Positions 39,221 to 61,876 of a stretch of DNA of 64,000 nt are shown piece by piece. The notes beneath the pieces were generated by a model. The model had not been told where the DNA came from and ran no database searches. It saw nothing but the letters and a program-made list of their open reading frames with translations. The translations under genes were made by a program, and so were the position numbers. The first letter of the stretch is position 1. Each line of letters starts with the position of its first letter. Source of the DNA: Pelosinus fermentans JBW45 (lineage in GTDB: Bacteria; Bacillota; Negativicutes; DSM-13327); the NCBI RefSeq assembly GCF_000271665.2, contig NZ_CP010978.1:1644501-1708500 (forward strand). The letters run 5' to 3'.

Positions 39221-39232
39221 GAGGATAACATT

Positions 39233-40021: not shown

Positions 40022-40139
40022 GAAAAAGTAATAGTATGGAACCAATATTCGCAATATTTTGCATTGTATTGGTATACTATACAGTACTTGAAAAGATCTG
40101 AATGCCAAGTCAAATCAATTGTGAAGTAGGAGGAAGGGT

Positions 40140-41036
40140 ATGTTTAACAAGGAAAAAGTAAAATTAGGAATCGCACCCATCGCTTGGACGAATGATGATA
40201 TGCCGGATCTGGGGAAAGAAAATACTTTTGAACAATGTATAAGCGAAATGGCTCTTGCTGGTTTTACTGGTTCAGAAGTAGGTTGTAAATATCCCAAAGA
40301 TGTAAATGTTTTAAAAAAGGCCCTTAATTTAAGAGGATTACAAATAGCAAGTGCTTGGTTTAGTGCCTTTTTGACAACAAAGCCATATGAAGAAACAGAA
40401 AGAGAATTCATTCGGCACAGAGATTTTCTACATGCTATGGGGGCTAAAGTCGTTGTAGTATCAGAACAAGGCCATAGTATACAAGGAAAGCTGGATATTC
40501 CGATATTCACAGGAAAATATAATTTAAATGATAAAGAGTGGCAGAACTTTGCAGAGGGCTTAAACAAATTAGGTGCCTTAGCAAAAGAAAAGGATATGAA
40601 ATTGGTTTATCATCATCATATGGGAACTGTAGTTCAGACTACGGAAGAAATAGACCGACTTATGAATATGACAGATGAAAACTTGGTGTATTTATTATTT
40701 GACTCAGGACATCTAGCGTATTCAGGGGAAGATTTTATTTCGATATTAAAAAAATATGTTAACAGAATTAAACATGTTCATTTAAAAGATGTGCGTCCAG
40801 AAATGCAAGAGAAAGTTAGAAAAGAAAACTTAAGTTTCCTTCAAGGGGTTAGAGCAGGTGCATTTACAGTGCCAGGAGATGGATGCATCGATTTTGGGCC
40901 AATCTTTACGATTTTGTCTGAAAATAAGTATGAAGGATGGCTGTTAGTAGAGGCAGAGCAGGATCCGGCACAAGCAAATGCTTTTGAATATGCGCAAAAG
41001 GCTAGAAACTATATCAAAGAAAAAATAGGGTTTTAA
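40140..41036 (+). CDS. iolE: Inosose dehydratase
   Basis: A 298-residue TIM-barrel enzyme that dehydrates scyllo-inosose to 3D-trihydroxycyclohexane-1,2-dione. IolE blocks are [29 protein letters not shown] and [13 protein letters not shown] with metal-binding residues. AGGAGGAAGG precedes the ATG. It follows iolB by 118 bases with no clear signal between. Confidence 0.94.
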
Positions 41037-41101
41037 AAAATCTATAGGGTAGATGATTTCGTCATTCAAAGGTAATGAATAATGATAGGCGAGGTGGCAT
41101 T

Positions 41102-43039: not shown

Positions 43040-43422
43040 CATCAATTAAATAAATATCCATAAGCAGTAAGTCATAAATAATGATCATTGCTCTAGTAGA
43101 TCATTTTTAAATGAATAACTCAAATGACTGGAGAAAATTGTGAATCTTATTTTATGGCTTACGCTTGCTTATATCTAACCCCTTAGATAATGAAACCGAA
43201 TTTACGGTCTCATTATAAAAAGTTGTCCTTAACGTGCCCGGGCAATTAAATTTTACAAATATTTCATTTAATTATTATTTTTCGAATTATCACAACTGTT
43301 ATGGAGACAATAGAGATATTGCTGTTGCTAGAGGAAAATACAATAGAAAAATGAAATAATTTGGTATTTAATGGAAATCATCCGTTGAATAAATATTGAA
43401 AATGGATAGGGAGGAAAGTAGT
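43040..43422 (+). other. Intergenic region before iolT
   Basis: This gap holds no gene. It has a short hairpin after iolD (GATCATT...GATCATTTTT, about 43082-43108), which may be its terminator, a stem at 43187-43216 (ATAATGA-A-ACCG with CGGT-C-TCATTAT), and the LacI-type operator half-palindrome at 43231-43248. Confidence 0.5.
43231..43248. promoter_or_regulatory. LacI-type operator candidate before iolT
   Basis: AACGTGCCCGGGCAATTA keeps one full half-site AACGTGC and the central CG of the palindrome at 45004-45021. Confidence 0.5.
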
Positions 43423-44916
43423 ATGAATGGACAGGTAAGTACAGCTTCCGGAACCGAGACAGCGGCATCCAAGGAACCGAACTCATCAATGAATGGAAAC
43501 CAACGTACCCCCAAGTCATTTTTAAAAAGGATTACATTTATATCAACATTTGGAGGACTGCTTTTTGGGTATGATACGGGTGTTATTAATGGAGCATTGC
43601 CGTATATGTCCCAAGCCGATCAATTAAACCTAACCGCATATACAGAAGGTTTGGTTGCCAGTTCACTTCTGTTTGGAGCTGCACTAGGAGCTGTGGCGGG
43701 GGGATTTTTTTCCGATAAGAATGGTCGTCGAAAGAATATTCTTTCTTTAGCAGTAATATTTTTTATTGCTGCACTTGGATGTACTTTTGCACCCAGTGTA
43801 CCCATCATGGTTGGATTTCGGTTTCTGCTTGGCTTAGCTGTAGGAGGAGCCTCTGTTACGGTACCGACCTATTTAGCTGAAATGTCTCCTTCGGAAAATC
43901 GGGGACGCATGGTTACTCAAAATGAGTTGATGATTGTTACAGGGCAGCTTTTAGCTTTCGTTTTTAATGCCATTATCGGTGTTACATTAGGTCAGGAAGC
44001 TCATGTTTGGCGTTATATGTTAGTTATTGCTTCGATCCCCGCTGTGGTCTTATGGTTTGGCATGCTTGTAATGCCGGAAAGTCCTCGCTGGCTTGCATCA
44101 AAGGGCAGAATTGGAGATGCATTACGCGTTCTTCAGCAAGTACGTGAAGAAAATAGAGCCCAAGCTGAATTGAATGAAATTCAAGAGACTCTTGCAGAAG
44201 AAGCCGAACTCAAAAAAGCGACTTATAAAGATTTGACAATTCCTTGGGTGCGTCGAATTGTATTCTTAGGGGTTGGTATTAGTGTTGTTCAGCAAATTAC
44301 AGGGGTTAACTCCATTATGTATTATGGAACCGAGATTTTAAGAAATGCCGGATTTAGCACAGAAGCAGCCTTAATTGGTAATATTGCAAATGGCGTTATT
44401 TCGGTAGTAGCTACTGTTGTAGGAATTTGGTTGCTGGGAAAAGTGGGACGACGTCCTATGTTGTTGGTTGGGCAAATCGGAACTACCGCAGCCTTACTGC
44501 TGATTGGAATCTTTTCATTAACCATGCAAGGATCTGCAATGCTTCCGTTTATTGTACTTTCATTAACGGTAACCTTTTTAGCGTTTCAGCAAGGTGCCAT
44601 TTCACCAGTGACATGGCTTATGCTCTCTGAAATATTCCCATTACGCTTACGGGGACTTGGAATGGGCGTATCTGTGTTCTGTTTATGGGTTATTAATTTC
44701 TTAATCGGCTTAACCTTTCCTGTATTATTAGCAAAACTGGGATTATCCACAACCTTCTTCGTATTTGTGGCTCTAGGGCTTATTGCAATAGCATTTGTAA
44801 ATAAATATGTACCAGAAACAAAAGATCGTACTCTTGAACAACTTGAGCGTGATTTCCGTAATTTTGATAAGCCAAAGAATAAGGCAGTTCAAGCATCGAT
44901 TATCGACTGCGATTAA
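43423..44916 (+). CDS. iolT: myo-Inositol transporter, MFS sugar-porter family
   Basis: A 497-residue twelve-helix MFS permease, close to Bacillus IolT (STFGGLLFGYDTGVINGALPYM, LTAYTEGLVASSLLFGAALGA, LAEMSPSENRGRMVTQNELMIV, WLMLSEIFPLRLRGLGMG, PETKDRTLEQLE). It imports myo-inositol with H+. A hydrophilic N-terminal extension of about 35 residues (MNGQVSTASGTETAAS...) is unusual. The ATG at 43423 is preceded by AGGGAGG. Confidence 0.94.
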   Translation: MNGQVSTASGTETAASKEPNSSMNGNQRTPKSFLKRITFISTFGGLLFGYDTGVINGALPYMSQADQLNLTAYTEGLVASSLLFGAALGAVAGGFFSDKNGRRKNILSLAVIFFIAALGCTFAPSVPIMVGFRFLLGLAVGGASVTVPTYLAEMSPSENRGRMVTQNELMIVTGQLLAFVFNAIIGVTLGQEAHVWRYMLVIASIPAVVLWFGMLVMPESPRWLASKGRIGDALRVLQQVREENRAQAELNEIQETLAEEAELKKATYKDLTIPWVRRIVFLGVGISVVQQITGVNSIMYYGTEILRNAGFSTEAALIGNIANGVISVVATVVGIWLLGKVGRRPMLLVGQIGTTAALLLIGIFSLTMQGSAMLPFIVLSLTVTFLAFQQGAISPVTWLMLSEIFPLRLRGLGMGVSVFCLWVINFLIGLTFPVLLAKLGLSTTFFVFVALGLIAIAFVNKYVPETKDRTLEQLERDFRNFDKPKNKAVQASIIDCD

Positions 44917-45117: not shown

Positions 45118-46164
<1,047 letters not shown>

Positions 46165-46291: not shown

Positions 46292-47155
46292 ATGAAGATT
46301 GCATTTGATCCTGATGTTATCAGATACTTGTCAATTACTGATATGGTACACAAAATTTCAGAAATGGGGTTTAAATACATCGAACAGTCTCCTCATCCTC
46401 AAATTTTACCATTCTACAAGCATCCCAAAGCAAGCAAGGAAATTATCGCAGAATATAAGAAGGCATTAAAAGAAACGGGAGTTAGTATTTCTTCCATGAT
46501 TCCAATTTACAATTGGTCAGGTCCAGAGGAAGAGCGTCGACAAGCTGCAGTGAAAAACTGGAAACGTGCGATTGAAATTGCAGTTGAACTAGATGTTAAT
46601 GTAATGAATACGGAGCTTGCCGGAGATCCCCATCAACCAGTTATTTGTGAAGAAATGTTTTATAAATCCATGGAAGAACTGCTTCCTATTTTTGAACGGG
46701 AAGGTATTCGTCTTGACATTCAATCTCATCCCTATGATTTTTGTGAAAATGGTAATGAGACAGTTGATATTGTTAAATCATTCCGCAGTAATCACGTAAA
46801 ATACCTGTACTGTGCAGCTCATACATTCTTCTACGATAATGGCGCGGGTGATGTTGCTGGTATGCTTGATTACGCTGGTGATGATTTATCACATGTTATT
46901 ATTGCGGATACTTTAAATCAAACGAAGAATTGCCGTTATATTGTGAATCCGCCAGGTGTAAGTGCTACCGTTCATCAGCATGTAGGACTTGGTGAGGGAG
47001 ATGTTAATTTTGATGCTTTCTTCCAAAAACTTCGTGAAATGAAGTTTGCCCAGCGGGATGATACCATTGCTTCTGTTTCTTTGTTTGGATTTCCAGAAAA
47101 AATGGCTTATCAAGGACCTGAGACACTAGCCAGAATAAAAAAAGAATTATTATAA
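46292..47155 (+). CDS. iolH: IolH, sugar isomerase/epimerase family
   Basis: A 287-residue TIM-barrel protein of the xylose-isomerase-like family, matching Bacillus IolH in length and N-terminus (MKIAFDPDVIRYLSITDMVHKI). Putative metal ligands are in LDIQSHPYDF and VIIADTLNQ. Its step in inositol catabolism is not well established in any organism. TAAGGAGG precedes the ATG. Confidence 0.88.
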   Translation: MKIAFDPDVIRYLSITDMVHKISEMGFKYIEQSPHPQILPFYKHPKASKEIIAEYKKALKETGVSISSMIPIYNWSGPEEERRQAAVKNWKRAIEIAVELDVNVMNTELAGDPHQPVICEEMFYKSMEELLPIFEREGIRLDIQSHPYDFCENGNETVDIVKSFRSNHVKYLYCAAHTFFYDNGAGDVAGMLDYAGDDLSHVIIADTLNQTKNCRYIVNPPGVSATVHQHVGLGEGDVNFDAFFQKLREMKFAQRDDTIASVSLFGFPEKMAYQGPETLARIKKELL

Positions 47156-47277
47156 ATTAGTCTGGTTGTTAATAGCTTCGTGCATTATCGAAATCGCATA
47201 GTAACCAACGTCTCATGTACTTATTTATGATTGAAATTTCCTAAGAAAAATCATATAATTCATGTGAGGTGGGGTTT

Positions 47278-48297
47278 ATGCGAGTCACGATTAAATCAGT
47301 AGCTGAAGCTGCCAATGTTTCAAGAGGTACAGTAGATAAAGTGTTAAATAACAGACTTGGTGTAAGTGATGAAGTGAGAGAACGTGTTAGAAATGTAGCC
47401 AAGGAATTAGGTTATACTGTAAACTTAGTTGGCAAAGCTCTGGCATTCCAAAAAAATCCTATAAAAATCGGAGTCATTATTTTAGACAAAAAAGATGAGC
47501 TGTTTAATGAAATTTATAAGGGGATTAGACTGGCTCATGATGAATGGAAAGACTCAGGAATTATCATAGAGTGCTGTGTAATGCAGAAAGTTGACGTAAA
47601 TGAGCAATTGAAATATATAAAAGAGCTGGAACAGAAAAATATTCGAGCCCTTGCATTATCTCCTCTTGATGAAGAAGCAATAACGAAAGAATTAAATAGA
47701 CTTGCAAAGAAAGATATAAAAATTATAACCTTTAATACGGACGTTCCTGGTATCAACAAAATGTGTTTTATTGGACAGGATTTGAAGAAAAGCGGACGTG
47801 TAGCTGGGCAGTTAATGGGAGATTTATTGCCCGCTGGCGGAGAGGTAGCAATCATAACAGGACCTGCGAAAATTAAGGCATTAAGGGAACGAAAAGCAGG
47901 TTTTGAAGAAATTATTTCCGCAGAATATCCTGCCATAAAAATCGTTGATACGGTAGAGCTCGCCAATGTTACATCTTCCTATGCAGAAGCAATAGAACTT
48001 TTTACAGCACATCCCAATCTCAATGGGGTTTTTATGACCGGTAGAGGAATCAGAGGCGTTGGCAAAGCCATTGGGAAGCTTAATAAAAAGAATGTCAAAT
48101 TTATATGTTTTGACTTGCTTCCTGAAACCATTCAGTTAATAAAAGATAACACAATAGATTTTACGATAACACAAGAACCCTTGATGCAAGGATATTTACC
48201 CATTAAGATCCTCTTTGAATATTTTTTCCTTAATAAAATTCCAGAAAAAGAATATTTATACACCAAACTTGAGATTAAAATTAGAGAAAATATTTGA
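47278..48297 (+). CDS. LacI-family transcription regulator
   Basis: A 339-residue regulator with a LacI-type HTH and hinge (TIKSVAEAANVSRGTVDKVLNNRLGVSDEVRERV) and a periplasmic-binding-like effector domain (IGVIILDKKDELFNEIYKGIRLA, GEVAIITGP, GVFMTGRGIRGVGKA). RGTVDKVLN replaces the usual TVSRVLN. Palindromes with central CG lie before iolT, iolG and iolI, on both sides of this gene, and are its likely targets. Inositol or a sugar derivative would be the effector. GAGGTGGGG precedes the ATG. Confidence 0.9.
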   Translation: MRVTIKSVAEAANVSRGTVDKVLNNRLGVSDEVRERVRNVAKELGYTVNLVGKALAFQKNPIKIGVIILDKKDELFNEIYKGIRLAHDEWKDSGIIIECCVMQKVDVNEQLKYIKELEQKNIRALALSPLDEEAITKELNRLAKKDIKIITFNTDVPGINKMCFIGQDLKKSGRVAGQLMGDLLPAGGEVAIITGPAKIKALRERKAGFEEIISAEYPAIKIVDTVELANVTSSYAEAIELFTAHPNLNGVFMTGRGIRGVGKAIGKLNKKNVKFICFDLLPETIQLIKDNTIDFTITQEPLMQGYLPIKILFEYFFLNKIPEKEYLYTKLEIKIRENI

Positions 48298-48397: not shown

Positions 48398-49231
48398 ATG
48401 AAATTATGTTTTAACCAAGCGACCACCATGGTAAAGTCATCATTGGAATTAGATTTACAATTCTGTGAAAAACATGGTTACGATCTAATTGAAATCAGAA
48501 CCATGGATAAATTAAAGGATTATCTAAAAAATCATAGCATTGAAGATCTAGCAAATTATTTCAAGACACATAAGATTAAACCTTATGCATTTAATGCCTT
48601 AGTATTCTTTAATAATCGAGATGAAGCAGGCTATAAAGAAATAAAAGAAGAATTGCAATACATGTGTGAAGTCGGACAAAAAATTGGCTGCCCCAATATC
48701 GTTGTGGTTCCTCTTGTAGGTACCGACAAATTCACTTATGGACAAATTAAAGAAAGTTCTGTAAAAGTCTTACATGAATTAGCAGATATTGCTGAAAAAT
48801 ATGGTATTCGGCTTGCGATTGAATTCGTAGGGCATCCTCAATGTACGATCAATACTTTTGGTAAAGCTTATGATATTGTGCAAGCTGTAAATCGAAATAA
48901 TGTAGGTTTGGTCTTAGATTGTTTCCATTTTCATGCAATGGGCTCAAGAATGGAAGATCTTAAAAAGGCTGACGGATCAAAAATCTTTATATTACACATT
49001 GATGATACTGAAGATTTTCCGATTGGCATCCTAACAGATGTTGATAGAGTGTGGCCAGGTGAAGGTGCAATAGACCTTAAAGGTATATTGACTACTTTGA
49101 AGGAAATCGGTTATAAAGAAGATATGGTATCTGTAGAATTATTCAGACCGGAATATTATGAGCTTGAAGTAGAAGAAGCAATAAAAATTGCCAAAGAAAA
49201 AACCTTAGCTGTTGTAGGGAAGTATTTTTAA
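48398..49231 (+). CDS. iolI: Inosose isomerase
   Basis: A 277-residue TIM-barrel enzyme nearly colinear with Bacillus IolI (LDLQFCEKHGYDLIEIRTMDKL, NALVFFNNRDE, EFVGHPQCTINTF, LDCFHFHAMGS, IDDTEDFPIGILTD, VSVELFRPEYY). Metal ligands Glu, Asp, His, Glu are in these blocks. It interconverts 2-keto-myo-inositol and 1-keto-chiro-inositol, letting D-chiro-inositol enter the pathway. AGGAGGAG precedes the ATG, and a strong terminator follows. Confidence 0.94.
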   Translation: MKLCFNQATTMVKSSLELDLQFCEKHGYDLIEIRTMDKLKDYLKNHSIEDLANYFKTHKIKPYAFNALVFFNNRDEAGYKEIKEELQYMCEVGQKIGCPNIVVVPLVGTDKFTYGQIKESSVKVLHELADIAEKYGIRLAIEFVGHPQCTINTFGKAYDIVQAVNRNNVGLVLDCFHFHAMGSRMEDLKKADGSKIFILHIDDTEDFPIGILTDVDRVWPGEGAIDLKGILTTLKEIGYKEDMVSVELFRPEYYELEVEEAIKIAKEKTLAVVGKYF

Positions 49232-49742: not shown

Positions 49743-50768
49743 ATGTTAAAGGTTGGTATTATCGGAGCAGGGAGAATTGGTAAAGTGCATGCAGAAAGTA
49801 TCTGCAAATATGTTAAGGGAGCAGAGGTAAGGTCGATTGCAGATCCATTTCTGGATGAAGTTACGGAACAATGGGCGAAATCATTGGGGATTCAACAAAT
49901 TAGTAAGGACTATCATGATATGTTGAGGGATGGAGAGATTGATGCTGTGTTAGTGTGTTCATCAACTGATACCCATTCACAAATTTCTCTAGATGCCATT
50001 AAAGAAGGTAAACATGTCTTCTGCGAAAAACCTGTTGATCATGATATAGAAAAGATTAAAGACGTAATAAAAGCAGTGCAAGGTTCTAAATGCAAATATC
50101 AGGTTGGTTTTAACCGTCGATTTGATCATAATTTTAGATCAGCTCGAGAGGCTGTAGCATCAGGTAAAATTGGAACACAGCATATTATTAAAATTACCTC
50201 TCGGGATCCAGAGGCACCACCTATTGCTTATGTTAAAGTATCAGGTGGAATGTTTCTTGATATGACAATTCATGATTTTGATATGGTTCGTTATTTATCC
50301 GGTAGTGAGGTGGTAGAAGTCTATGCTGTAGGTGGAGTATTAGTGGATTCTGCTATTGGTGAAGCTGGTGATATTGATACAGCAATCATCACAATGAAGC
50401 TGGAAAATGGTGCTATGGCAGTAATTGATAATTGTAGGCAGGCTTCTTATGGTTATGACCAACGAGCAGAGATTTTTGGCTCTAAAGGGGCAGTGGAAAT
50501 TAGTAATGATACATTCTCTACTGCCGTGGTGAGTACTACTGATGGTGTTATTGCTGAAAAACCGCTGCATTTCTTTCTTGAAAGATATATGCAGGCTTAT
50601 GCTAACGAGATTAGAGAATTCATTGAGGCTATCGAAGAGAATAAAGATGTTCCTGTTACTGTGATCGATGGATTAGAGCCTGTAATTATTGGACTTGCAG
50701 CAAAAAAATCCATGGCTGAAAATCGACCAGTGAAAACTGCAGAAATTAAAAAGGCTTTTGGCTTATAG
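49743..50768 (+). CDS. Inositol 2-dehydrogenase-like oxidoreductase
   Basis: A 341-residue Gfo/Idh/MocA protein with GAGRIGKVHAESI, FCEKPVDHD (catalytic Lys) and GFNRRFDHNFRSAREAV, GGMFLDMTIHDFDMVRYLSG. It is an IolG-type protein clearly different from the iolG at 45151 and resembles the class often annotated as inositol 2-dehydrogenase in Firmicutes. scyllo-, chiro- or a phosphorylated inositol are possible substrates. It opens the phosphatase/phytase locus, with AGGGAAGGTGG before the ATG. Confidence 0.85.
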   Translation: MLKVGIIGAGRIGKVHAESICKYVKGAEVRSIADPFLDEVTEQWAKSLGIQQISKDYHDMLRDGEIDAVLVCSSTDTHSQISLDAIKEGKHVFCEKPVDHDIEKIKDVIKAVQGSKCKYQVGFNRRFDHNFRSAREAVASGKIGTQHIIKITSRDPEAPPIAYVKVSGGMFLDMTIHDFDMVRYLSGSEVVEVYAVGGVLVDSAIGEAGDIDTAIITMKLENGAMAVIDNCRQASYGYDQRAEIFGSKGAVEISNDTFSTAVVSTTDGVIAEKPLHFFLERYMQAYANEIREFIEAIEENKDVPVTVIDGLEPVIIGLAAKKSMAENRPVKTAEIKKAFGL

Positions 50769-50905: not shown

Positions 50906-52282
50906 ATGAATGTATTTAAATGGTTTTTAACTGGCGAAGCAAAGCCACGAATTCAAGATTCTGAGCAAATAAAAAGGATGTTTACTCGGGCTAGGTGGCA
51001 GGGAATGACTGCAATGATCTTGGGTTATGGTATGTATTATGTAATGAAAATGACTCTAGGTGTTGCAAAGAAGCCGATGATACAAGAAGCTGGTTTTACG
51101 GCTACTGAATTGGGACAAATTGGCGCAGCATTGCTAATTGCATACGCATTTGGTAAGTGTTTTCATGGATTTCTTGGTGATAGGTGTAGTGTAAAAAAAT
51201 TAGTGCCCATTGGTTTACTGGGTTCAGCCATAGCTAATGTTATATTAGGATTTACCCCTTATTTTTGGGCTTTTTTATTCCTTTGGTTTGTTAACGGCTG
51301 GTTTCAGTCTATGGGATCCGCACCATGTATTGTTGGCATCACGCAGTGGTTTCCAAAGAGTCAAGTCGCAACCCAGTATGGTGTGTTTAGTATTGCCCAT
51401 TATCTAGGCGAAGGTGCTACGTTTATATTTTCAGCAATGTTAATTGTTAAATTTGGTTGGCAGTCGGCATTTTTATACCCAGGGCTTGCGTGTTTAGTTA
51501 TTGCATTTATTATGTATAAGTTTATGTTTGATCGCCCAGAAGCATATGGTTTACCAACAGCTAATGAGTACAATGGTGAAGTCATAGAAGTAGCAAAGGA
51601 AAAGACAAAAACTACGAAAGAAGCACAGATAGAAGTAATAAAAAATCCATATGTCTGGTTAGTTGCATTGAGCGCTACTTGTATGGGAATTGCTCGCTAT
51701 TCAATAAGTAGCTGGGGTGTTATTTATTTGCAAGAAGTTAAAGCTTATGATTTGATAGCTGCTGGTAGCGTACTTGCTATAACACCTTTAATGGGAGGAA
51801 TCGGATCCTTTGCATCTGGCTATATTTCAGACAAAATTTTTAAATCAAACCATGCGCTAACAACTATATTCTTTGGACTCGTAATGCTAGGAGGATTAGT
51901 AGGTTTTTGCTTAAATCCTGCAGGAAATCAATTGCTAGATACCATCTTTATGGCAATATTTGGTTTTGGTTTGGGAGTTATACTCTGCTTTGTTGGTGGA
52001 ATGCTTGCAGTTGATCTTTGTTCACAAAAGGCTGCTGGAGCTGCCATGGGTGTAGTCGGATTGCTAGCTTATGCAGGTGCAGCAGTACAAGACGTTCTCA
52101 ATGGTATGTTGATGGATGCCAGTATTATTATGGTAAATGGCAAGACTGTATATAATTTTGATAATATTAAGATGTTTTGGATTGGCTCTGTAATTACTAT
52201 GATTATATTGCTTGTGCCAATATTATGGGCAAAAAAAGCACAAGCAAAAAAGGATGCTGAACTTCTTAGTGCAGCGAGGTAA
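50906..52282 (+). CDS. MFS permease of the organophosphate:phosphate antiporter family
   Basis: A 458-residue, twelve-helix MFS protein resembling GlpT/UhpT/UhpC (MTAMILGYGMYYVMKMTLGVAKKPMIQE, GKCFHGFLGDRCSVKKLVPIGLLGSA, GWFQSMGSAPCIVGITQWFPKSQ). GlpT-type transporters exchange phosphate for phosphorylated solutes. The arginine that binds phosphate in GlpT (YYLVRKNF) seems replaced by Lys (YYVMKMTL). Between an inositol dehydrogenase and two phosphatases it may import an inositol phosphate or glycerophospho-inositol. The ATG at 50906 follows AGGAGTGGGAG. Confidence 0.82.
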   Translation: MNVFKWFLTGEAKPRIQDSEQIKRMFTRARWQGMTAMILGYGMYYVMKMTLGVAKKPMIQEAGFTATELGQIGAALLIAYAFGKCFHGFLGDRCSVKKLVPIGLLGSAIANVILGFTPYFWAFLFLWFVNGWFQSMGSAPCIVGITQWFPKSQVATQYGVFSIAHYLGEGATFIFSAMLIVKFGWQSAFLYPGLACLVIAFIMYKFMFDRPEAYGLPTANEYNGEVIEVAKEKTKTTKEAQIEVIKNPYVWLVALSATCMGIARYSISSWGVIYLQEVKAYDLIAAGSVLAITPLMGGIGSFASGYISDKIFKSNHALTTIFFGLVMLGGLVGFCLNPAGNQLLDTIFMAIFGFGLGVILCFVGGMLAVDLCSQKAAGAAMGVVGLLAYAGAAVQDVLNGMLMDASIIMVNGKTVYNFDNIKMFWIGSVITMIILLVPILWAKKAQAKKDAELLSAAR

Positions 52283-52309
52283 TGACTTTTAAAATAGGAG
52301 AAATGAAAT

Positions 52310-53020
52310 ATGGTAAGAATTGTTGCGGATTTGCATACGCACTCCCTTGCTTGTGGTCATGGTTTTAGCACCGTTACAGAAGTCATTCGTGCTGCAGCAG
52401 ATTGTAAGTTAGAAGCGGTGGCTTTAACTGAGCATGGTCCAGGTTATCCTGGGAGTGTAGGTTATGCTTATTTTAATACTTATCGTGACATTCCTTCAGA
52501 AATGTTTGGAATATCTGTATTGAAAGGATGCGAGGCTAATTTAATGAATTTGGCTGGTGAATTGGATTTTGATGAGAATCACTTAGCTCAATTGGATATA
52601 GTGATTGCTAGCTGTCATAAAGAGGTAACACCAATAGGTACGATTGAGCAAAATACTGCAATGTATATCGGAGCGATTCAAAACCCATATGTGGACATTA
52701 TTGGTCATCCGGATTTTCCCCTATATCCTATTGATGTAGAAGCAGTCGTTAGAGCGGCTGCCGCAAGGGGTGTTGCGTTAGAAATTAATAATAGTTCACC
52801 GGCAGCTCGTCCAGATAGTGAAGACATGTGCGCTGAGATTATTTGTAATGCTAAGCGCCTAGGTGCTAAATTAGCAGTTGGATCAGATGCTCATTATCAT
52901 CTTGTGGTGGGGAATTTTGATTATGCGTATGAAATGCTTAGTAAATATGGTTATCCACTAGAGCAAGTTATCAACTCTTCTATGGATAAGCTGCTTTCTC
53001 ATCTTAAACGAAACAGATAA
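52310..53020 (+). CDS. PHP-domain phosphatase
   Basis: A 236-residue PHP-fold metal-dependent phosphoesterase like YcdX. Metal ligands are in the N-terminal DLHTHS (H9, H11), TEHGPGY, ASCHKE, GHPDFPL and GSDAHYH motifs. No signal peptide, so it acts in the cytoplasm. It follows the antiporter by 27 bases and precedes a large metallophosphoesterase, implying dephosphorylation of an imported compound. Start: ATAGGAGAAATGAAAT then ATG. Confidence 0.85.
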   Translation: MVRIVADLHTHSLACGHGFSTVTEVIRAAADCKLEAVALTEHGPGYPGSVGYAYFNTYRDIPSEMFGISVLKGCEANLMNLAGELDFDENHLAQLDIVIASCHKEVTPIGTIEQNTAMYIGAIQNPYVDIIGHPDFPLYPIDVEAVVRAAAARGVALEINNSSPAARPDSEDMCAEIICNAKRLGAKLAVGSDAHYHLVVGNFDYAYEMLSKYGYPLEQVINSSMDKLLSHLKRNR

Positions 53021-53140
53021 GCTTTGTTAAGATGTTTGAAAAAGACTAAAATAGTAAGGTGAATGTATGAGATGTAACTTTTATATCTCATACATTGCTA
53101 AAATAAGTTAAGCGGAATCTACTAGAGAAGGAGGAAAAGG

Positions 53141-56059
53141 ATGAGTTGTTCAGATATTTCAAATGGTCCTTATTTATTGGCACCAACTACAACTGGTATG
53201 ACGGTAACTTGGGAGACTCGTTTTCCGGTTGGCGCAATAGTGTTGTATGGGATTATGGGACAGTTTGATAATAAGCTAACTGTTGAGTGTGAACGAGGAA
53301 CTCCTTGGAAGGACAATATAGAAGGAATTTGCATGTACCGAGGGATTCTTACAAATCTTAAGCCCGATACAGCGTATGTTTATAAAGTTGTATTGGAATC
53401 AGGTGAGATTAAAGAAGGTAGCTTTAAGACACTGAGTGACAATCCCGAAGAAATTCGAATTATTACCTTAAGTGATTCCCATTTATTTAAAATAAGCCGG
53501 GAGTTTACTGATGCTGTATTACAAAACAGACCGGATTTTATTATTCATTCAGGTGATATATCATTAGCCACAGGCTATCAAAAGGATGAATATACTACTA
53601 ATTGGTTTAATGAAGGAGCCCATTTTCTAAAGAATATTCCTGTTATTTATGCATTTGGCAATCATGATATTAGTCCATATTATGATGATTTTTTTATGCA
53701 TGTACAAAAGAACGTCTATCATACAGATAAAACAGGTCATAATATTTCATTTAATTATGGAGATACCCATATCGCATTTTTAGACAGTAACCCTTGGGGG
53801 CTCTTTGAAATGAATGCTGTAAATTCGGGGTTGCCCGTTGATGAAGTTACAAGAAAAAATATTGATATTACATTAACGTGGCTTCATGATGATTTAGGAT
53901 CGCCTGAGGCTCAAGACGCAATGTGGAGAATTTTAGTGCTGCACCATCCTTATACAGATGATTTTACTAATAAACATATTGTTGCGATAGCGGAAAATTA
54001 TAATGTCAATATAATAATTGCGGGACATCTGCATTATTATATTAAAAATGTATCTGTCAATCCTAAAATTGGGTCGAAAACCGTTTATATCAGCCAAGGA
54101 AGTGCTCAGGATTATGCAGTGGCACTGGACTATGGAAAGGAAGATGAAAGAATTTTACCAGATTTTCCAGAGGTGATTGCCACGGGTCAGGCAAATTATG
54201 GATGTATTACGATTAATAAGGATACTTTGATTTTCAGAAGTTATGGATTTCAAGAAGATCTAGTTGGCAGTAAACTTGTTGATGAAGTGACTCTTGTTAA
54301 AGAAGAATCCCAGGTCGCTTTATCTGGCATAACGATTAAGGCAGATTGTAGAAGAGGAACTGTAGTAATTGAAGGTTATGCTAAGAATGAAGGACGTGGT
54401 CTGGCAGTTGTAACGCTTTTAATACTAGATAACGGCAAGGAATTTATACAAAACTTATTTGGTGTCAAGGGCAAGGAACGTGTTGTGGCTTTAAATCCAG
54501 GCGAAGTAAAGAGGATTAATACTGAGTATACGATTGTAGAACCAGGGAGACATATAATAAAAGTTAGTAACACAACTCAGTTGATTGATGTTGTGCCTCC
54601 AGCTCCAATCATCTTTGAAAATTTGAGATCTAAGGTCGGTCAGGGAAAAGCTTCAAATATTATTTTTACGACAGTTGAAATCACGAATAATCAAGATGTT
54701 AGCACTTTGATTGATGTTGATTTATACATAGACAATCGAATTGTCCTAACTCAGAAAGCAGAATTGCAGTCTTATGAGAAAAAAAGTGTAGACTTCACTT
54801 ACCAACCTGCTAAAGGCGGGACCTATAAGGTCTCCATAGGAGATCTAGAATCTAAAGCGGTGACCGTTGAGGGAACTTTAAAAGGGATACCTATTATTAA
54901 AGATTTATCTGGAAATGGCAATCATGCTTTTCTTAGAGGTAAACCTAGAATAATCGCTGATAGTGATAGGGTCGTGCTATCTCTTGATAAGTATGGAGAT
55001 TATATTGAAATACCTGATAGTGAAACCTTACATGTTAAGGATGGATATACTGGCATTGTCTGGGCTAATCTCAATCGATTAGCCACAGAAGAAGAAATGG
55101 GGCATAACCCGTTGATGGTAAAGGGGATTTCCACTGGCTGGGGGGCTACCTATTTACTGAGAATGTGCGTGGAAAGAAATGGAAATATAAAATGGGGGAC
55201 ATGCTATGGAATTACTGAATACTCTTGGCAAGGGGGAAAAGCCAGTGTAGGGGATTGGGTTCAATATAGCTCTACTTTTGATAAGGAAACTGGCGGAGTA
55301 TCTTATTGCAATAAAGAAAAGGTTGCAGAAATTATTGGGATTTCAGTAGATGATCCGCTGCGCAATTGGGAAGGCGTACCACTCTTTGTTGGTTATTCTT
55401 ATATTGGACATATCATAAGAGAGATTGGCAGACCTAAATATTTCACACATCTTTCTGCAAAAATTAGTCAGGTTCGTTTTTATAAAACAAAACTTTCAGA
55501 AGATGAAATTAAAGATATCTATGAGCATCAAAATAAAGTCGGATCTAATAGTGAAGACTTGGCTGTTTGGTTAAACTTTCGGGATATTGAGACAAAGGGT
55601 ATGCACAAAACTGAATGGCGAAGACCAGCAACGTTCTATCCTTCTTACAAAACGGAGAAACGACTATGGGAATTTAAGACTCTTAGTGTCGATGCAACAA
55701 TACCAGGGATGGCCTATTTAAAAGCGATTGTGCAAGTTTCTGATGATGGAGAAACTGTAAAAGATTCTATAGGAATAGAGTTGATGAATGGCAAACAGAA
55801 AATCGATATATCCATTTTATCAAAAGCACAGTTTATAAGAATCATGACCGAGTTCCATTCTTCTGTTACTCTAGAGGGGACTTATACTCCAGAATTACAT
55901 GAATATAAAATAGGAGCCTTTTTAGGTCAATTAATAACACATATAAATTGGGGCACACGAGTTGATTGGGAAAGCGGCGAGTTTAACGGAGCTGTTGGTT
56001 TTGAACCTTTGGATAGGACTAAGGTTTTTGATGAATATACCGACGTAATCCATGGTTAG
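53141..56059 (+). CDS. Large metallophosphoesterase with C-terminal LamG-like domain
   Basis: A 972-residue protein. Residues 5-98 look like the fibronectin-like N-domain of purple acid phosphatases (GPYLLAPTTTGMTVTWET, LKPDTAYVYKV). A calcineurin-like phosphoesterase follows with D112 and H114 (SDSH), D139 (SGDI), N174-H175 (GNHD), LHHP and GHLHYY. The middle has CARDB-like beta domains (about 390-580), then a LamG/concanavalin-like module starting DLSGNGNHAFLRG (about 590-800). No signal peptide is seen, odd for such beta-rich modules. GGAGGA precedes the ATG. The substrate is unknown; an inositol-linked phosphate is suggested by neighbours. Confidence 0.8.
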   Translation: MSCSDISNGPYLLAPTTTGMTVTWETRFPVGAIVLYGIMGQFDNKLTVECERGTPWKDNIEGICMYRGILTNLKPDTAYVYKVVLESGEIKEGSFKTLSDNPEEIRIITLSDSHLFKISREFTDAVLQNRPDFIIHSGDISLATGYQKDEYTTNWFNEGAHFLKNIPVIYAFGNHDISPYYDDFFMHVQKNVYHTDKTGHNISFNYGDTHIAFLDSNPWGLFEMNAVNSGLPVDEVTRKNIDITLTWLHDDLGSPEAQDAMWRILVLHHPYTDDFTNKHIVAIAENYNVNIIIAGHLHYYIKNVSVNPKIGSKTVYISQGSAQDYAVALDYGKEDERILPDFPEVIATGQANYGCITINKDTLIFRSYGFQEDLVGSKLVDEVTLVKEESQVALSGITIKADCRRGTVVIEGYAKNEGRGLAVVTLLILDNGKEFIQNLFGVKGKERVVALNPGEVKRINTEYTIVEPGRHIIKVSNTTQLIDVVPPAPIIFENLRSKVGQGKASNIIFTTVEITNNQDVSTLIDVDLYIDNRIVLTQKAELQSYEKKSVDFTYQPAKGGTYKVSIGDLESKAVTVEGTLKGIPIIKDLSGNGNHAFLRGKPRIIADSDRVVLSLDKYGDYIEIPDSETLHVKDGYTGIVWANLNRLATEEEMGHNPLMVKGISTGWGATYLLRMCVERNGNIKWGTCYGITEYSWQGGKASVGDWVQYSSTFDKETGGVSYCNKEKVAEIIGISVDDPLRNWEGVPLFVGYSYIGHIIREIGRPKYFTHLSAKISQVRFYKTKLSEDEIKDIYEHQNKVGSNSEDLAVWLNFRDIETKGMHKTEWRRPATFYPSYKTEKRLWEFKTLSVDATIPGMAYLKAIVQVSDDGETVKDSIGIELMNGKQKIDISILSKAQFIRIMTEFHSSVTLEGTYTPELHEYKIGAFLGQLITHINWGTRVDWESGEFNGAVGFEPLDRTKVFDEYTDVIHG

Positions 56060-56149
56060 CGGATTAATCATATGGACGGGCTGCTTTTACTAGATATTCT
56101 TGATTAAGGCTTTTAGCAGAGTCTGGTGTACAATCATTTTTGATACGAT

Positions 56150-56192
56150 ATAGCTCAGCAGGTTGTTAACGTGTTTAAATCTGCTGAGCTAT
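56150..56192 (+). other. Perfect hairpin before the first phytase
   Basis: ATAGCTCAGCAG (56150-56161) and CTGCTGAGCTAT (56181-56192) pair perfectly around a 19-base loop. AAAAGA, not a T-run, follows. It may end the phosphatase messenger or act in the phytase leader. Confidence 0.6.
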
Positions 56193-56312
56193 AAAAGACG
56201 AAATATTCAATTTATTATAACTCTATTGTGGAATAAAAATGTGAAAGGAGGGGATTTACAGAAAGAACAGGTATTCAGTCACTAAAATAAATCTAAATGG
56301 GGAGGGTTTTTC

Positions 56313-57272
56313 ATGAAAAGGACATTAGCCAGTAAGAAACTATTTTTTGCACTATTGTTAACATTATTATTACTTTGTCAGGTGACATTGGTGGCGATTG
56401 CTAACGAGGTCCCAAAGGGGCCAGTTCTGAAAGTTGATCGTCAAGATATTTCACAGTTGCCTAGAAACTTTAGAATTACGAATGATCCATTTAAAGGTAC
56501 TTTGAAAGATGGTAGTATACCTTCTAGAGTTGGCATAGATAAAGTAAGGGCATCAGCAAGCAGTATATTTTCTGAAAAGGAATTTGAACAAGTTCTTGCA
56601 AGGCTTCCTGTCTCTAGCAAAAACGTAATTGTTTTAGATTTGCGTCAGGAGTCTCACGGTTATTTGAATGGGACAGCAGTAAGCTGGTTTTTACCGAACA
56701 ACTGGGGGAATGATGGTAAGAACCTTGAAGAGGTTACAGCAATTGAGCGTGCTCAACTTGATAAAGCGTTAGTTAATTCCCCGACTACAGTGTACAATTT
56801 TGACGATAATAAGAATGTCCTTACGACTAGTTACCAAATGGATGTGACAAGTGCACGTACAGAAGAGCAAATGGTTAAGGACCACGGTGCAGGATACTAC
56901 CGGCTTGCCTTAGCAGATCATTTTCGTCCGGAAGACAAAGATGTAGATACTTTCATTGAATGGTATAAGAAATTGCCTAAAGATGCTTGGCTGCATATTC
57001 ACTGTTTCGCTGGTATGGGACGTACTACCGTTTTTATGAATATGGTGGATATATTACAAAATGCTAAGCAAGTCAGCTTTAACGATATTGTAGGTCGCCA
57101 GGGACTGATTGGTATTGTTGACCTTCGCGATATTGACGGCAAACTAAACTGGAAGCGTAAAGCTTATATCGAACGTCTGCAATTTACGAAACATTTTTAT
57201 GAGTATGTAAAACAAAGTCCTAAGGATTTTCCGGTAAAGTACTCGGAATGGGCTAAAAAGCACGACTATTAA
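56313..57272 (+). CDS. PTP-like phytase (inositol polyphosphatase), copy 1
   Basis: A 319-residue exported cysteine phosphatase. A signal peptide (residues 1-31, core FFALLLTLLLLCQVTLVAIA) is followed by the PTP-like phytase pattern: KVDRQDISQLPRNFR, DLRQESHGYLNG, the general-acid loop ADHFRP and the P-loop HCFAGMGRTT with nucleophile C231 and R237. Proteins of this group, known from Selenomonas, remove phosphates from inositol hexakisphosphate stepwise. The P-loop Phe and Met differ from HCEAGVGRTT of the best-known enzymes. GGGGAGGG precedes the ATG. Confidence 0.9.
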   Translation: MKRTLASKKLFFALLLTLLLLCQVTLVAIANEVPKGPVLKVDRQDISQLPRNFRITNDPFKGTLKDGSIPSRVGIDKVRASASSIFSEKEFEQVLARLPVSSKNVIVLDLRQESHGYLNGTAVSWFLPNNWGNDGKNLEEVTAIERAQLDKALVNSPTTVYNFDDNKNVLTTSYQMDVTSARTEEQMVKDHGAGYYRLALADHFRPEDKDVDTFIEWYKKLPKDAWLHIHCFAGMGRTTVFMNMVDILQNAKQVSFNDIVGRQGLIGIVDLRDIDGKLNWKRKAYIERLQFTKHFYEYVKQSPKDFPVKYSEWAKKHDY

Positions 57273-57333
57273 TTCGCTATAAGCAATGTTTGTACTTAAC
57301 AATGAAGTAAAAAAATAAGTGGAGCGAGAAACA

Positions 57334-58281
57334 ATGAAAAAAATGGCAAAGGGTAATTTAGTTTTAACTATTCTATTAACCATAGCGATGCTTTTGCAAG
57401 CACCGTTCTTAACACTAGCCGCTGAGCCTGCACCTGGAGTAACTATTTTGAAGGTTGACAGGGACGATATATTGCAATTGCCTAAGGACTTTAGAATAGC
57501 AAATGATGCTTTTAAACAGTTAAGTACGGATTTTAAAATGCCTTCAAGATTTGGTATGGACAAGCTAAATCTTTCAGGCAGTAGTTACTATTCTCAATTA
57601 GAATTTGCAAAAATGCTGACAAAATTGCCTCAAGATCGGTTAGTTATCTTGGATTTGCGCTTAGAGCCTCATGGCTATTTAGATGGTATGGGGGTAAGCT
57701 GGTACAGTGCTTACAAAAGGGCTAATTGGGGGAAGAGTTCTGCCGAATTGGAAATAATCGAAAGAAATTTATTGGATAGTACATTAGCTGGTTCTGTTGA
57801 AGTAGCTCGTCTTGATTCTGAGAAATCGATTGCTTCTAAGACTGAACTAAATGTTACCCATGCACTTACGGAAGGCGATTTAGCAGCGCTATTTGGAGTA
57901 AAATATTTCCGAATTTACGTTGCTGACTATACTAAACCAACGGATGAAAATGTGGATCAATTTCTGAATTTCTATCAAAAACTTCCGAAAGATGCTTGGC
58001 TGCATTTACACTGTGAAGCGGGTGAAGGACGTACTACTGTATTTATGGCAATGGTAGATATGCTACATAATGCAAAAGATGTTAGCTACGATGATATTAT
58101 GTCCCGTCAATGGTTAATTGGCGGTCAAGATATCCGGAAATCAACATCAAAAGATCCATTGAAAAAAGTGGGTTATGCGGATCGTGCTGCATTTACGAAG
58201 CATTTTTATGACTATGTATCACAAAGACCTAATGATTCTATGACTTGGACTGAATGGGCAAAGCAACATAAATACAATTGA
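57334..58281 (+). CDS. PTP-like phytase, copy 2
   Basis: A 315-residue paralogue of the preceding gene, with a signal peptide (NLVLTILLTIAMLLQAPFLTLAAE), KVDRDDILQLPKDFR, DLRLEPHGYLDG, acid loop ADYTKP and the P-loop HCEAGEGRTT (C227, R233), which is the closest of the three to classical phytases. The ATG at 57334 is preferred to GTG at 57319. It follows copy 1 by 61 bases and is probably co-transcribed. It acts in the periplasm. Confidence 0.92.
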   Translation: MKKMAKGNLVLTILLTIAMLLQAPFLTLAAEPAPGVTILKVDRDDILQLPKDFRIANDAFKQLSTDFKMPSRFGMDKLNLSGSSYYSQLEFAKMLTKLPQDRLVILDLRLEPHGYLDGMGVSWYSAYKRANWGKSSAELEIIERNLLDSTLAGSVEVARLDSEKSIASKTELNVTHALTEGDLAALFGVKYFRIYVADYTKPTDENVDQFLNFYQKLPKDAWLHLHCEAGEGRTTVFMAMVDMLHNAKDVSYDDIMSRQWLIGGQDIRKSTSKDPLKKVGYADRAAFTKHFYDYVSQRPNDSMTWTEWAKQHKYN

Positions 58282-58491: not shown

Positions 58492-59439
58492 GTGAATAAA
58501 AATATGATCACCGCTGTTGTACTAGCAGCGATTATGATGTCAACTGTCCAGGTTTATGCTAGTGCTGGTCCTATTAAAATTACAGGATCGACAAAGACCG
58601 GATATGAACGTACGGAAGATAATGAATATAAGTCCAAGAGCGAAATCAAGGTTTATATGACTAGCGAGCTTGATGATAGAACTACGGTAGGGCTTGATTT
58701 AAAATTCAAGAATTCAAACAATAATACAGCTAACTCTGAGTCAAACTCCATTACGCTTTATGACGTGTGGGTAGAGAGCAAGCTAAATAATACTATGGCG
58801 CTGCGTCTTGGAAGTCAACCTATTGATATAGGTAAGGGTTTATGGATGTCTGCTAATGGTGTAACTGGTGCCATGTTATCCGCGAAACTTAATAAAGCTA
58901 ACTTAATTAGAGTATTTGCCGGTCGGGATCAGCAGGAAGATACGGTCTACGATGCCAAGAGTCGTACTAAAATAAACTTTACTAGTGAAATACAATACTT
59001 GGCTTGGGACAATGCTTTCGAAAAGGGAATTGGAGGTGTTTATTTTGGAAAGCAAGACAAGGATAAATATGTAGCTGTACATGGCAAGTATGAATTTGCT
59101 TCACAAACGACAGTAAGCAGTGAATACATAAATAATAATCACAGTAAGACAAAAGCCTATGTAGTCGAATTGGAAAATGGCAGCACGAAAAAGGTTGGTG
59201 ATTTTAAGTACACCCTGTCTTACATGGATGCTGATGCAGGAATTTTTAGAGATGCCAATTATACAGATTATGATGACCAGTATACTGAGAATGGATTTAA
59301 AGGAGTTGGCGCAGCAATTTCTTATAAAGTATCCAAAGCAGGTACCCTCACATTCGAAAAATGGTGGGGAGAAAAGACGGCCGCTGCAGATCATGGTACT
59401 TTCATCTGTTCGTCGCTAAAACTGAGTACTAAGTTCTAA
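58492..59439 (+). CDS. Outer-membrane porin-like beta-barrel
   Basis: A 315-residue exported protein with a signal peptide (MITAVVLAAIMMSTVQVYASA) and alternating polar/apolar strands (KITGSTKTGYER, SEIKVYMTSELDDRTTVGLDLKF, MALRLGSQPIDIGKGLWM) ending in a C-terminal phenylalanine (KLSTKF), as outer-membrane barrels do. It has no SLH anchor domain. The start is GTG at 58492 after GGAGGAAG. Set among three phytases, it may let phytate or inositol phosphates through the outer membrane. It is direct evidence for a diderm cell. Confidence 0.82.
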   Translation: MNKNMITAVVLAAIMMSTVQVYASAGPIKITGSTKTGYERTEDNEYKSKSEIKVYMTSELDDRTTVGLDLKFKNSNNNTANSESNSITLYDVWVESKLNNTMALRLGSQPIDIGKGLWMSANGVTGAMLSAKLNKANLIRVFAGRDQQEDTVYDAKSRTKINFTSEIQYLAWDNAFEKGIGGVYFGKQDKDKYVAVHGKYEFASQTTVSSEYINNNHSKTKAYVVELENGSTKKVGDFKYTLSYMDADAGIFRDANYTDYDDQYTENGFKGVGAAISYKVSKAGTLTFEKWWGEKTAAADHGTFICSSLKLSTKF

Positions 59440-59502: not shown

Positions 59503-60471
59503 ATGAAAAAAATCATATCATTCGTATTCATGTTAACCATGTTACTCGCTTGTGAATCAGTTCTATTTGCTGCTGAACCAGCAATGCAGACTGTGCAGGA
59601 AACGCCAATCTGGCGAATTGACAATAAAAACATCTCCACGATGCCAAAAAGCTTTAGGATGGCAACTGATCCATTTCAAAATAAAAAGATAAAAGGGGAA
59701 TTACCATCTAGACTCGGTTTGGAAAATCTGCATATTTCAGGGAGCTCTGAATTTTCCTTTGCATCTTATGATAAGATGATAGAAAAAATAAAGTCAGTAG
59801 CTTCTGGTCCGATTTATATAGTTGATTTGCGCCAGGAATCTCATGGCTTTGTAAATGGTATTGCGGTAAGTGCGTATATTAGCCGTGATTGGATAAATGT
59901 AGGTAAATCAACTGCCCAAGTTGAAAAAGACGAAAAAGCGTGGTTAAGATCTGCTTTAAAGGCTCCTATAGAAATTTCTGTCTTAGATGATGATAAAAAC
60001 GCTTATGAAACTTATAAAATAGTAGTTGATAACGCACTCACCGAAAAAGAATTTGTAACTTCTCGTGGACAAAATTACCTGCGAATTCAAGCCACTGATC
60101 ACTCTTCATTTACAAATGAACAAGTTAACGATTTTGTGAAGTTTTACAAGAAATTACCTCAAGATGCTTGGATACATTTTCATTGTATGGCTGGTGAAGG
60201 GCGTACCACTCAAATCATGGTAATGTATGACATTCTTCGCAATGGAAAACAGGTGAGTTTCGAGGACATTGTAAATCGTCAATATTTGCTTGGTGGGAAC
60301 AATGCTACCAAAATAACTGTATCTAACGAAAAGGATTCTTATAAGGTGCCTCTCTATAAGGAAAAGGTTAAACTTTTGAAAAAGTTTTATGAGTATGTAA
60401 CAACAAGTCCTGATGATTTGCCAATTAGTTGGTCGAAATGGATTAAAGAACATAATCAGGACGAAGAATAA
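59503..60471 (+). CDS. PTP-like phytase, copy 3
   Basis: A 322-residue third paralogue with a signal peptide (IISFVFMLTMLLACESVLFAAE), RIDNKNISTMPKSFR, DLRQESHGFVNG, acid loop TDHSSF and the P-loop HCMAGEGRTT (C228, R234). It differs from copies 1 and 2 by more than they differ from each other near the C-terminus, so product or substrate preference may differ. AGGAGGAG precedes the ATG, 63 bases after the porin stop. Confidence 0.9.
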   Translation: MKKIISFVFMLTMLLACESVLFAAEPAMQTVQETPIWRIDNKNISTMPKSFRMATDPFQNKKIKGELPSRLGLENLHISGSSEFSFASYDKMIEKIKSVASGPIYIVDLRQESHGFVNGIAVSAYISRDWINVGKSTAQVEKDEKAWLRSALKAPIEISVLDDDKNAYETYKIVVDNALTEKEFVTSRGQNYLRIQATDHSSFTNEQVNDFVKFYKKLPQDAWIHFHCMAGEGRTTQIMVMYDILRNGKQVSFEDIVNRQYLLGGNNATKITVSNEKDSYKVPLYKEKVKLLKKFYEYVTTSPDDLPISWSKWIKEHNQDEE

Positions 60472-60592: not shown

Positions 60593-61720
60593 ATGAAAAC
60601 ATGTAGAAAAATATGTGCAGCTTTATTAGTTACTTCCTTCATGGGGTTTGGCTGGGGAGGTTGTAATATTTCTGAAGCAGCAAAGAATTATCACGATGTT
60701 GCTGTTCAGGCAGATTATGAAACTGATGCTGTTGTAGCAGGTAATGATGCCGCAGATGATCCGGCTATATGGGTTCATCCTCGAAACCCTTCTAAAAGTA
60801 CTATTATTGCTACTAATAAACAGGGAGGCCTTCTTGTTTATGATTTAAAAGGTAAGGAATTATATAATGTCAAAGTTGGAAAGCCGAATAATGTTGATGT
60901 ACGTTACAGTTTTCCCCTTGGCAAGGAAAAGATTGATATTGCTGCTGCTACTGATAGATCCCAAAAAAATGGGCTGCTTATTTATAAAATAAACTCAGAG
61001 ACGGGTAAATTGACGAATATCGCAGCAAGAGATATATTTGCCAAGATGAAAGTAGTATATGGATTTTCTTTGTACCATAGCTTGAAAACTGGTAAATACT
61101 ACGCTCTTATATCTGGATATGAAGGTGAATTTGAGCAATATGAACTATTTGATAACGGAGAGGGGAAAATTGATGCTAAACTGGTTCGTTCTTTAGAAAT
61201 CGGCAGTATTTCTGAAGGTTTAGTAGCTGATGATGAATATGGTTGCTTCTATATTTCTGAAGAAAATGTTGGAATATGGAAATATGGTGCTGAGCCCAAT
61301 GCAGGAACTAAGCGTGTTCAGGTTGATTCTGTCGGTGTTGGTCATTTAATTGCAGATGTTGAAGGATTAACGATTTATTACGCACGTAATGGAAAAGGGC
61401 ACTTAATAGCCTCTAGCCAAGGAAATAACAGTTATAATATCTATGATCGAAGCGGAATCAATTCATACATTGGCAGTTTTTCTATTGATGATGGTAAAGT
61501 TGATGGAACTAATGATACGGACGGCATTGATGTTATCAGTTTTGAACTGGCGAAGGAATTTCCTAATGGTCTATTTATTGCTCAAGATGGTGAAAATATG
61601 GACGGTGATAAGAAATTAAACCAAAACTTTAAAATAGTAAGGTGGGAAAAAATTTCTCGAGCCCTTCCTGGCATATTATTGGATAATACAGTGAATCCGC
61701 GACACTTGAAAAGGCAATAA
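60593..61720 (+). CDS. Beta-propeller 3-phytase
   Basis: A 375-residue exported enzyme of the Ca2+-dependent beta-propeller phytase family. The hallmark DDPAIWVHPRNPSKSTIIATNKQGGLLVYDLKG (starting at about residue 55) and the later ISEGLVADDEYGCFYISEENVGIWKY, VEGLTIYY and DGIDV segments form blades and metal sites. A signal ends near GWGGC (C24), so it may be a lipoprotein, although the lipobox is weak. It is unrelated in fold to the neighbouring cysteine phytases but has the same substrate. GAGGTGAT precedes the ATG. Confidence 0.92.
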   Translation: MKTCRKICAALLVTSFMGFGWGGCNISEAAKNYHDVAVQADYETDAVVAGNDAADDPAIWVHPRNPSKSTIIATNKQGGLLVYDLKGKELYNVKVGKPNNVDVRYSFPLGKEKIDIAAATDRSQKNGLLIYKINSETGKLTNIAARDIFAKMKVVYGFSLYHSLKTGKYYALISGYEGEFEQYELFDNGEGKIDAKLVRSLEIGSISEGLVADDEYGCFYISEENVGIWKYGAEPNAGTKRVQVDSVGVGHLIADVEGLTIYYARNGKGHLIASSQGNNSYNIYDRSGINSYIGSFSIDDGKVDGTNDTDGIDVISFELAKEFPNGLFIAQDGENMDGDKKLNQNFKIVRWEKISRALPGILLDNTVNPRHLKRQ

Positions 61721-61759: not shown

Positions 61760-61876
61760 AAAAATTATTAGATATCGTTTCTCTGTGCGGCTTATAACTT
61801 TAGATATTGATATATTTACAGGGATAAATTTGACTGGGATTTGATGTCAAATATAAATACGAAAGGTGAGGAATTT

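Follow-up and report, generated by a model that had tools for sequence, protein, structure and literature searches.

A probable phytate-utilisation locus of Pelosinus fermentans with a candidate inositol monophosphate permease and its conserved phosphatase partner

The window, the whole stretch of 64,000 nucleotides of the Pelosinus fermentans JBW45 genome that was analysed, contains an inositol-catabolism cluster followed by phytase genes. On the forward strand, the cluster includes iolC-, iolB-, iolE- and iolD-like genes (at 38204, 39233, 40140 and 41075, spanning 38204-43039), labels given on the basis of the usual iol gene order and gene lengths. Locus comparison places this run next to the permease in congeners too. 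Downstream on the same strand lie a sugar porter of the MFS, likely an IolT-like importer of free inositol (43396-44916; TIGR00879, 366.9 bits, over the cut-off), a second inositol dehydrogenase of the myo/D-chiro type (45151-46164; NF052679, 605.4 bits for a cut-off of 540), a xylose-isomerase-like TIM barrel (46292-47155; PF01261), a LacI-type regulator recognized by eye from its N-terminal sequence and likely to control the locus (47269-48297; ortholog at 91% in the locus of a congener), another xylose-isomerase-like TIM barrel, IolI/IolE/IolO-like (48398-49231; PF01261, with weak NCBIfam matches), and the inositol 2-dehydrogenase IolG (49743-50768; TIGR04380, 475.8 bits for a cut-off of 355). 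A CoA-transferase-like gene inside the cluster (35248-36819; PF01144) is consistent with a CoA-based, anaerobic final part of the pathway.

The next gene on the forward strand encodes a permease (50906-52282) that is of the OPA type of the MFS by profile searches and predicted fold, and a candidate inositol-monophosphate:phosphate antiporter. Its open reading frame starts at GTG 50897 or ATG 50906, and the stop codon ends at 52282. After a spacing of 27 nucleotides (52283-52309) comes, on the same strand, the gene of a YcdX-like PHP phosphatase (ATG 52310 to stop 53020), predicted from NF006702, its PDB match and its linkage to be an accessory cytoplasmic enzyme. A preliminary description had reported an OPA-family permease, a PHP gene 27 bases downstream and an adjoining inositol-dehydrogenase-like gene; all were found in place, the dehydrogenase being IolG by its score over the TIGR04380 cut-off. 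Beyond what had been described, the run continues with a metallophosphoesterase of the purple acid phosphatase fold (53141-56059, forward strand), three PTP-like phytases and a beta-propeller phytase. Two congeners show the same succession of permease, PHP protein and next phosphatase genes, and the arrangement is therefore not due to chance. AT-rich inverted repeats of 16 nucleotides precede the metallophosphoesterase (53062-53096) and the first phytase (56149-56193), and may be operators or RNA hairpins.

The three secreted PTP-like phytases are encoded on the forward strand at 56313-57272 (loop HCFAGMGRT; PF14566, 91.9 bits for a cut-off of 27), 57319-58281 (HCEAGEGRT; 82.9 bits) and 59503-60471 (HCMAGEGRT; 87.7 bits). 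All three combine the HCx5R loop with a PF14566 score over the cut-off, and the best 12-residue stretch within their first 40 residues has a hydrophobicity of 2.71-3.09. XopH, the best NCBIfam name for these proteins, was rejected: the scores of 203.9 and 153.2 compare with a cut-off of 500, and only the common PTP-like domain lies behind the match. The beta-propeller phytase follows on the same strand (60593-61720; PF02333, 498.1 bits for a cut-off of 21). Two unrelated phytase classes are thus present in one locus, as they are in the congener G005. An outer-membrane protein termed porin-like from a reading by eye is encoded at 58492-59439 (forward strand). It has no Pfam match, and distant relatives (26-29%) stand beside phytases in Selenomonas and Anaerovibrio loci; it is a candidate channel for phytate entry through the outer membrane. 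A dCache-type chemoreceptor (61841-63874) adjoins the phytases and has relatives in the loci of three other genomes (G005, G008 and G292), with taxis toward phytate products as a possible role.

With the permease, the TIGR00881 profile gave 250.9 bits for a cut-off of 407.75. The protein scored below the cut-offs of all named OPA equivalogs: GlpT (230.1 for 632.55 and 208.2 for 748), UhpT (147.1 for 497), PgtP (148 for 750) and UhpC (217.3 for 564). The fold nearest to its predicted model is that of human SLC37A4 (Z-score of 45.9 with 380 aligned residues and 2.1 Å), that of GlpT giving a Z-score of 35.4, and the sequence matches that of GlpT (1pw4) with an E-value of 5e-52. By this modelled MFS fold, nearest to GlpT and SLC37 proteins, the permease belongs to the OPA family.

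The distribution of the genes was surveyed in 380 genomes of the class Negativicutes. Permeases with at least 56% identity form a clade, the next proteins having at most 40%. The clade is represented in 32 of the 380 genomes, the metallophosphoesterase likewise in 32, and both occur in 31. The exceptions are G097, where a permease fragment at a contig end is found without the phosphatase, and G343, a genome 78% complete with the phosphatase only. A one-sided Fisher test gave p = 3e-43, which is not a true probability as the genomes are related. The phosphatase stands beside the permease in 31 of the 32 carrier neighbourhoods, and the loci of G276 and G126 contain two copies of it. When neighbours were counted by BLAST to the window proteins at 1e-8, with a minimum of 45% identity for iol genes, a PTP-like phytase was found in 17 neighbourhoods, an iol gene in 18, and one or the other in 25. 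Where at least 13 kb had been fetched, the proportion was 21 of 23. Seven neighbourhoods contain neither, of which four are shorter than 10 kb and one measures 10.8 kb. The sugar porter was seen in the window only (1/32). At the level of whole genomes, PTP-like phytases are present in 30 of the 32 carriers versus 158 of the 348 other genomes.

Four carriers gave no match to PF14566, PF00328 or PF02333, namely G342, G126, whose genome is complete, G343, with the phosphatase only, and the Scrofimicrobium genome G382. A strict dependence on the carrier's own phytase was thus not upheld, and the substrate need not be a product of a self-made phytase. The genes can serve organisms that make no InsP themselves; these might scavenge products that their neighbours release, or take up another substrate.

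Among the ten genomes of the family, the permease and PHP genes of the window are paired in three (G000, G005 and G008), each time with PTP-like phytases alongside, and G006 has a PTP-like phytase without the pair. The order iolG, permease, PHP, phosphatase, phytase, phytase is kept in the congeners G005 and G008. In the latter, an iolE-like gene follows iolG, and the stretch between the phosphatase and the phytases encodes a TAT-signal protein of 389 residues (L039:1359-2528) with no other Pfam match. The sugar porter is missing from both of these loci, in which iol genes and phytases are present; two relatives are encoded elsewhere in G005 and none in G008 at an E-value of 1e-40. In selenomonads, the permease gene is flanked by a divergent gene for an AraC-type regulator (L087:7843-8748, L125:8851-9702), versus the LacI-type regulator of the Pelosinus locus.

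The PHP protein scored 255.1 bits with NF006702, just under the cut-off of 264. Its best PDB match is E. coli YcdX (1m65, E-value of 1e-40), the metal ligands of which are kept by alignment: they correspond to His 9, 11, 17, 42, 103, 133 and 195 of the window protein. As had been proposed, it lacks a signal peptide, its best 12-residue hydrophobicity within the first 40 residues being 1.03 versus 2.71-3.09 for the PTP-like phytases. In contrast to E. coli YcdX, it is encoded in a phytate locus, and it is 45% identical to the single other YcdX-like protein of the genome. Relatives of the additional OPA and YcdX-like proteins occur in the other genomes of the family. The PHP gene is linked to the permease in only 6 of the 32 carrier neighbourhoods, which rules it out as the conserved partner; it is an accessory in this genus and a few others. 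The initial proposal of an inositol-phosphate importer working with a cytoplasmic phosphatase remains the best fit to the conserved context, but the phosphatase so paired is the metallophosphoesterase and not the PHP protein.

The metallophosphoesterase has 972 residues, with a LamG-type domain and further β-domains, according to Pfam, alignment, modelling and fold search. A subset of 22 phosphatases (A2) was picked from the loci and aligned, as were 23 permeases (A1). In the predicted model of the window protein (pLDDT of 87.9), a two-domain purple acid phosphatase fold extends over residues 1-422. The best fold matches are plant purple acid phosphatases (Z-score of 34.2), followed by the wheat purple acid phytase (28-29), and the glycerophosphodiesterase GpdQ is lower in the list (17.5). 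Matches to PAPP-A, pentraxin and neurotoxin-associated proteins cover nothing but the LamG-type domain and were disregarded. The metallophosphoesterase motifs are present, the first one being DSH, and the metal-binding motifs are invariant in the 22 aligned sequences save for one with Gln at position 114. The tyrosine of the GDxxY motif, the Fe(III) ligand that makes true purple acid phosphatases purple, is missing: the window protein has GDISL, and no tyrosine occurs there in any of the 22 sequences. The enzyme is therefore termed purple acid phosphatase-like. It shares the fold and the metallophosphoesterase motifs with purple acid phosphatases, but differs from them by the DSH and GDISL motifs, the additional LamG-type and further β-domains, and the lack of a signal peptide.

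The likely location of this phosphatase was deduced from its N-terminus. The structure matches start at residues 1-3, and most of the 22 aligned sequences enter the fold only a few residues after their first amino acid. None of the 22 has an N-terminus resembling a signal peptide, as judged by eye and by a simple scan of hydrophobicity. The genes of permease and phosphatase overlap or all but touch in several loci, with -4 nucleotides from stop to start in L094, 0 in L102, 3 in L090 and L093, and 15 in L101, which leaves no room for a signal peptide. From these sequence features we infer that the phosphatase is cytoplasmic. The LamG-type domain, uncommon among proteins of the cytoplasm, weighs against this location.

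The substrate pocket of the permease was compared with that of GlpT, in which Arg45 and Arg269 are the phosphate-binding basic residues and His165 is the pocket histidine. Lys48 of the window permease aligns with the arginine of the segment YYLVRK of 1pw4, Arg45. The comparison covered 26 clade members, consisting of the A1 set with L124, L134 and L136 added. Arg264, His165 and Lys84 are invariant in all 26, and position 48 is Lys in six and Arg in 20; it is Arg also in the congener L037. The replacement of this arginine by lysine, pointed out in the preliminary description, does exist in the window permease but is not a property of the clade. It cannot bear an argument on specificity, and was discarded as a signature. 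Other positions distinguish the clade almost completely from 51 OPA relatives, seven of 58 non-clade proteins having been left out as their open reading frame was missing or outside 380-520 residues. These are Phe161 in place of Trp (46/51), Tyr166 in place of Asn (42/51), Gly261 in place of Tyr (50/51) and Ser266 in place of Ala (42/51). Judging by their nearness in sequence to pocket residues, these changes suggest a reshaped, perhaps roomier pocket. The clade thus has the MFS fold, the pocket histidine and the second arginine in common with the OPA family (GlpT, UhpT, PgtP, UhpC and SLC37A4), the first arginine being Arg or Lys, but stands apart by these changes, its constant link to a cytoplasmic phosphatase and its frequent links to iol and phytase genes.

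Named genomes were scanned as well and yielded 80 loci, a set that overlaps the survey of 380 genomes, so that the counts of the two are not independent. In the 26 loci with a permease of at least 50% identity, the phosphatase was found 26 times, a phytase 13 times and an iol gene 15 times. The 54 loci with a permease below 50% identity contained no phosphatase, no phytase, and iol genes once. The pair occurs in Mitsuokella, Selenomonas, Megamonas, Pelosinus and a few other Firmicutes. Three of the 26 loci are by title outside the Negativicutes. Clostridium muellerianum has a full iol run, a sugar porter, the permease, the phosphatase and a PTP-like phytase on one strand. The pair is not common among Clostridia, as the phosphatase was detected in one of 391 genomes, that of C. 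muellerianum itself. In the Scrofimicrobium canadense stretch, a LacI regulator is found, and neither iol nor phytase genes. In Caproicibacter fermentans, the pair is inside an iol cluster, followed by a histidine phosphatase with MINPP phytases as best PDB relatives (E-value of 1e-44). There the phytase class is swapped and the pair stays, which we regard as the strongest indication that these loci deal with inositol phosphates.

Mitsuokella jalaludinii DSM 13811 carries the permease-phosphatase pair (L125), and its growth on phytate has been studied. The passages covered of that study (PMC7618129) report a doubling time of 3.4 h on phytate and 7 h on myo-inositol, and the accumulation on phytate of Ins(2)P and inositol as intermediates. 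According to the legend of its Figure 4, uptake is possible for both Ins(2)P and inositol. The same kinds of phytases and iol genes as in the window make up the pathway described there. A periplasmic phytase and an inositol transporter are assigned, and in the parts covered neither an Ins(2)P importer nor an intracellular phosphatase gene is named. The growth difference and the uptake on phytate are ascribed in those parts to the induced 'inositol transporter' MJ_0380, which weighs against import of Ins(2)P by the permease. In the passages covered, a review (PMC12482443) again describes dephosphorylation in two steps by way of Ins(2)P and names no importer. A text search of PMC12406696, on marine inositol phosphates, returned no passage on a transporter, permease or uptake, and the passages covered of PMC12838507, on pig gut bacteria, contain nothing on inositol phosphate uptake. 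The literature search turned up no description of a bacterial importer of inositol phosphates, which is weak evidence of absence as subscription papers were mostly outside its coverage.

The following route is proposed. Phytate would reach the periplasm, possibly through the porin-like protein, and secreted phytases of both classes, PTP-like and beta-propeller, would cut it down to a lower inositol phosphate. The most likely product is myo-inositol 2-monophosphate, since PTP-like phytases stop at Ins(2)P. OPA proteins exchange organophosphates for phosphate, and the permease would take up Ins(2)P probably in this manner. In the cytoplasm, the purple acid phosphatase-like enzyme, aided in this genus by the PHP protein, would remove the last phosphate. 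Inositol would enter the Iol pathway, and the released phosphate would be available for the next exchange, with one Pi per InsP1. Recycling of Pi in this way predicts that inositol is taken up at no energetic cost. This prediction agrees with the faster doubling of M. jalaludinii when phytate rather than inositol is supplied, as given in the passages covered of PMC7618129.

The genes, their order, conservation and co-occurrence, the predicted folds and the absence of signal peptides are findings of the analysis; substrate, exchange mode, catalysis and regulation are inferred. The overall reading, a locus by which a diderm Firmicute uses phytate and in which the import step acts on phosphorylated inositol that is dephosphorylated inside, is given a probability of about 0.7. 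The narrower proposal of a dedicated inositol-monophosphate:phosphate antiporter, with a cytoplasmic phosphatase regenerating the counter-substrate so that phytate fermenters are spared the final hydrolysis in the periplasm and any energy cost of inositol uptake, is held at slightly better than even odds.

Three other readings were weighed. The permease may be an ordinary antiporter of sugar phosphates or glycerol phosphate for phosphate scavenging, co-located with the phytases because both answer phosphate starvation; its nearest solved relatives carry glucose-6-phosphate (SLC37A4) and glycerol-3-phosphate (GlpT), and the pocket His and Arg are kept. This is unlikely for several reasons. An OPA protein other than this permease is encoded in the genome (37%) and in all ten genomes of the family, the clade is separated by the drop in identity from 56 to 40% and has fixed changes close to the pocket (Gly261 and Tyr166 among them), and its links are to inositol catabolism. 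The preliminary description had named glycerophosphoinositol beside InsP1 as a substrate. Import of such a glycerophosphodiester, with the metallophosphoesterase as a cytoplasmic diesterase, would agree with the transport of glycerol-3-phosphate by OPA relatives and with the presence of GpdQ among the fold matches, and the phosphatase could act on diesters. Its model is, however, far closer to phosphomonoesterases, with purple acid phosphatases and the wheat purple acid phytase as nearest folds, and phytases recur in the loci. InsP1 is for these reasons retained as the likelier substrate, and import of a glycerophosphodiester is considered improbable.

Uptake of InsP2-InsP3, followed by removal of several phosphates inside by the phosphatase, is given very little weight. 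In its favour, one of the best fold matches, the wheat purple acid phytase, is an enzyme active on polyphosphates, and the G276 and G126 loci have two copies of the phosphatase. Against it, the OPA relatives of known substrate carry monophosphate esters, and the intermediate detected in Mitsuokella is Ins(2)P, according to the passages covered of PMC7618129.

If import of inositol monophosphate by the permease is correct, the InsP1:Pi antiport step would account for the faster growth of Mitsuokella on phytate relative to inositol. The permease-phosphatase pair offers a candidate answer to the fate of the Ins(2)P left by the PTP-like phytases of gut and rumen bacteria, and would be a marker for complete phytate fermenters.
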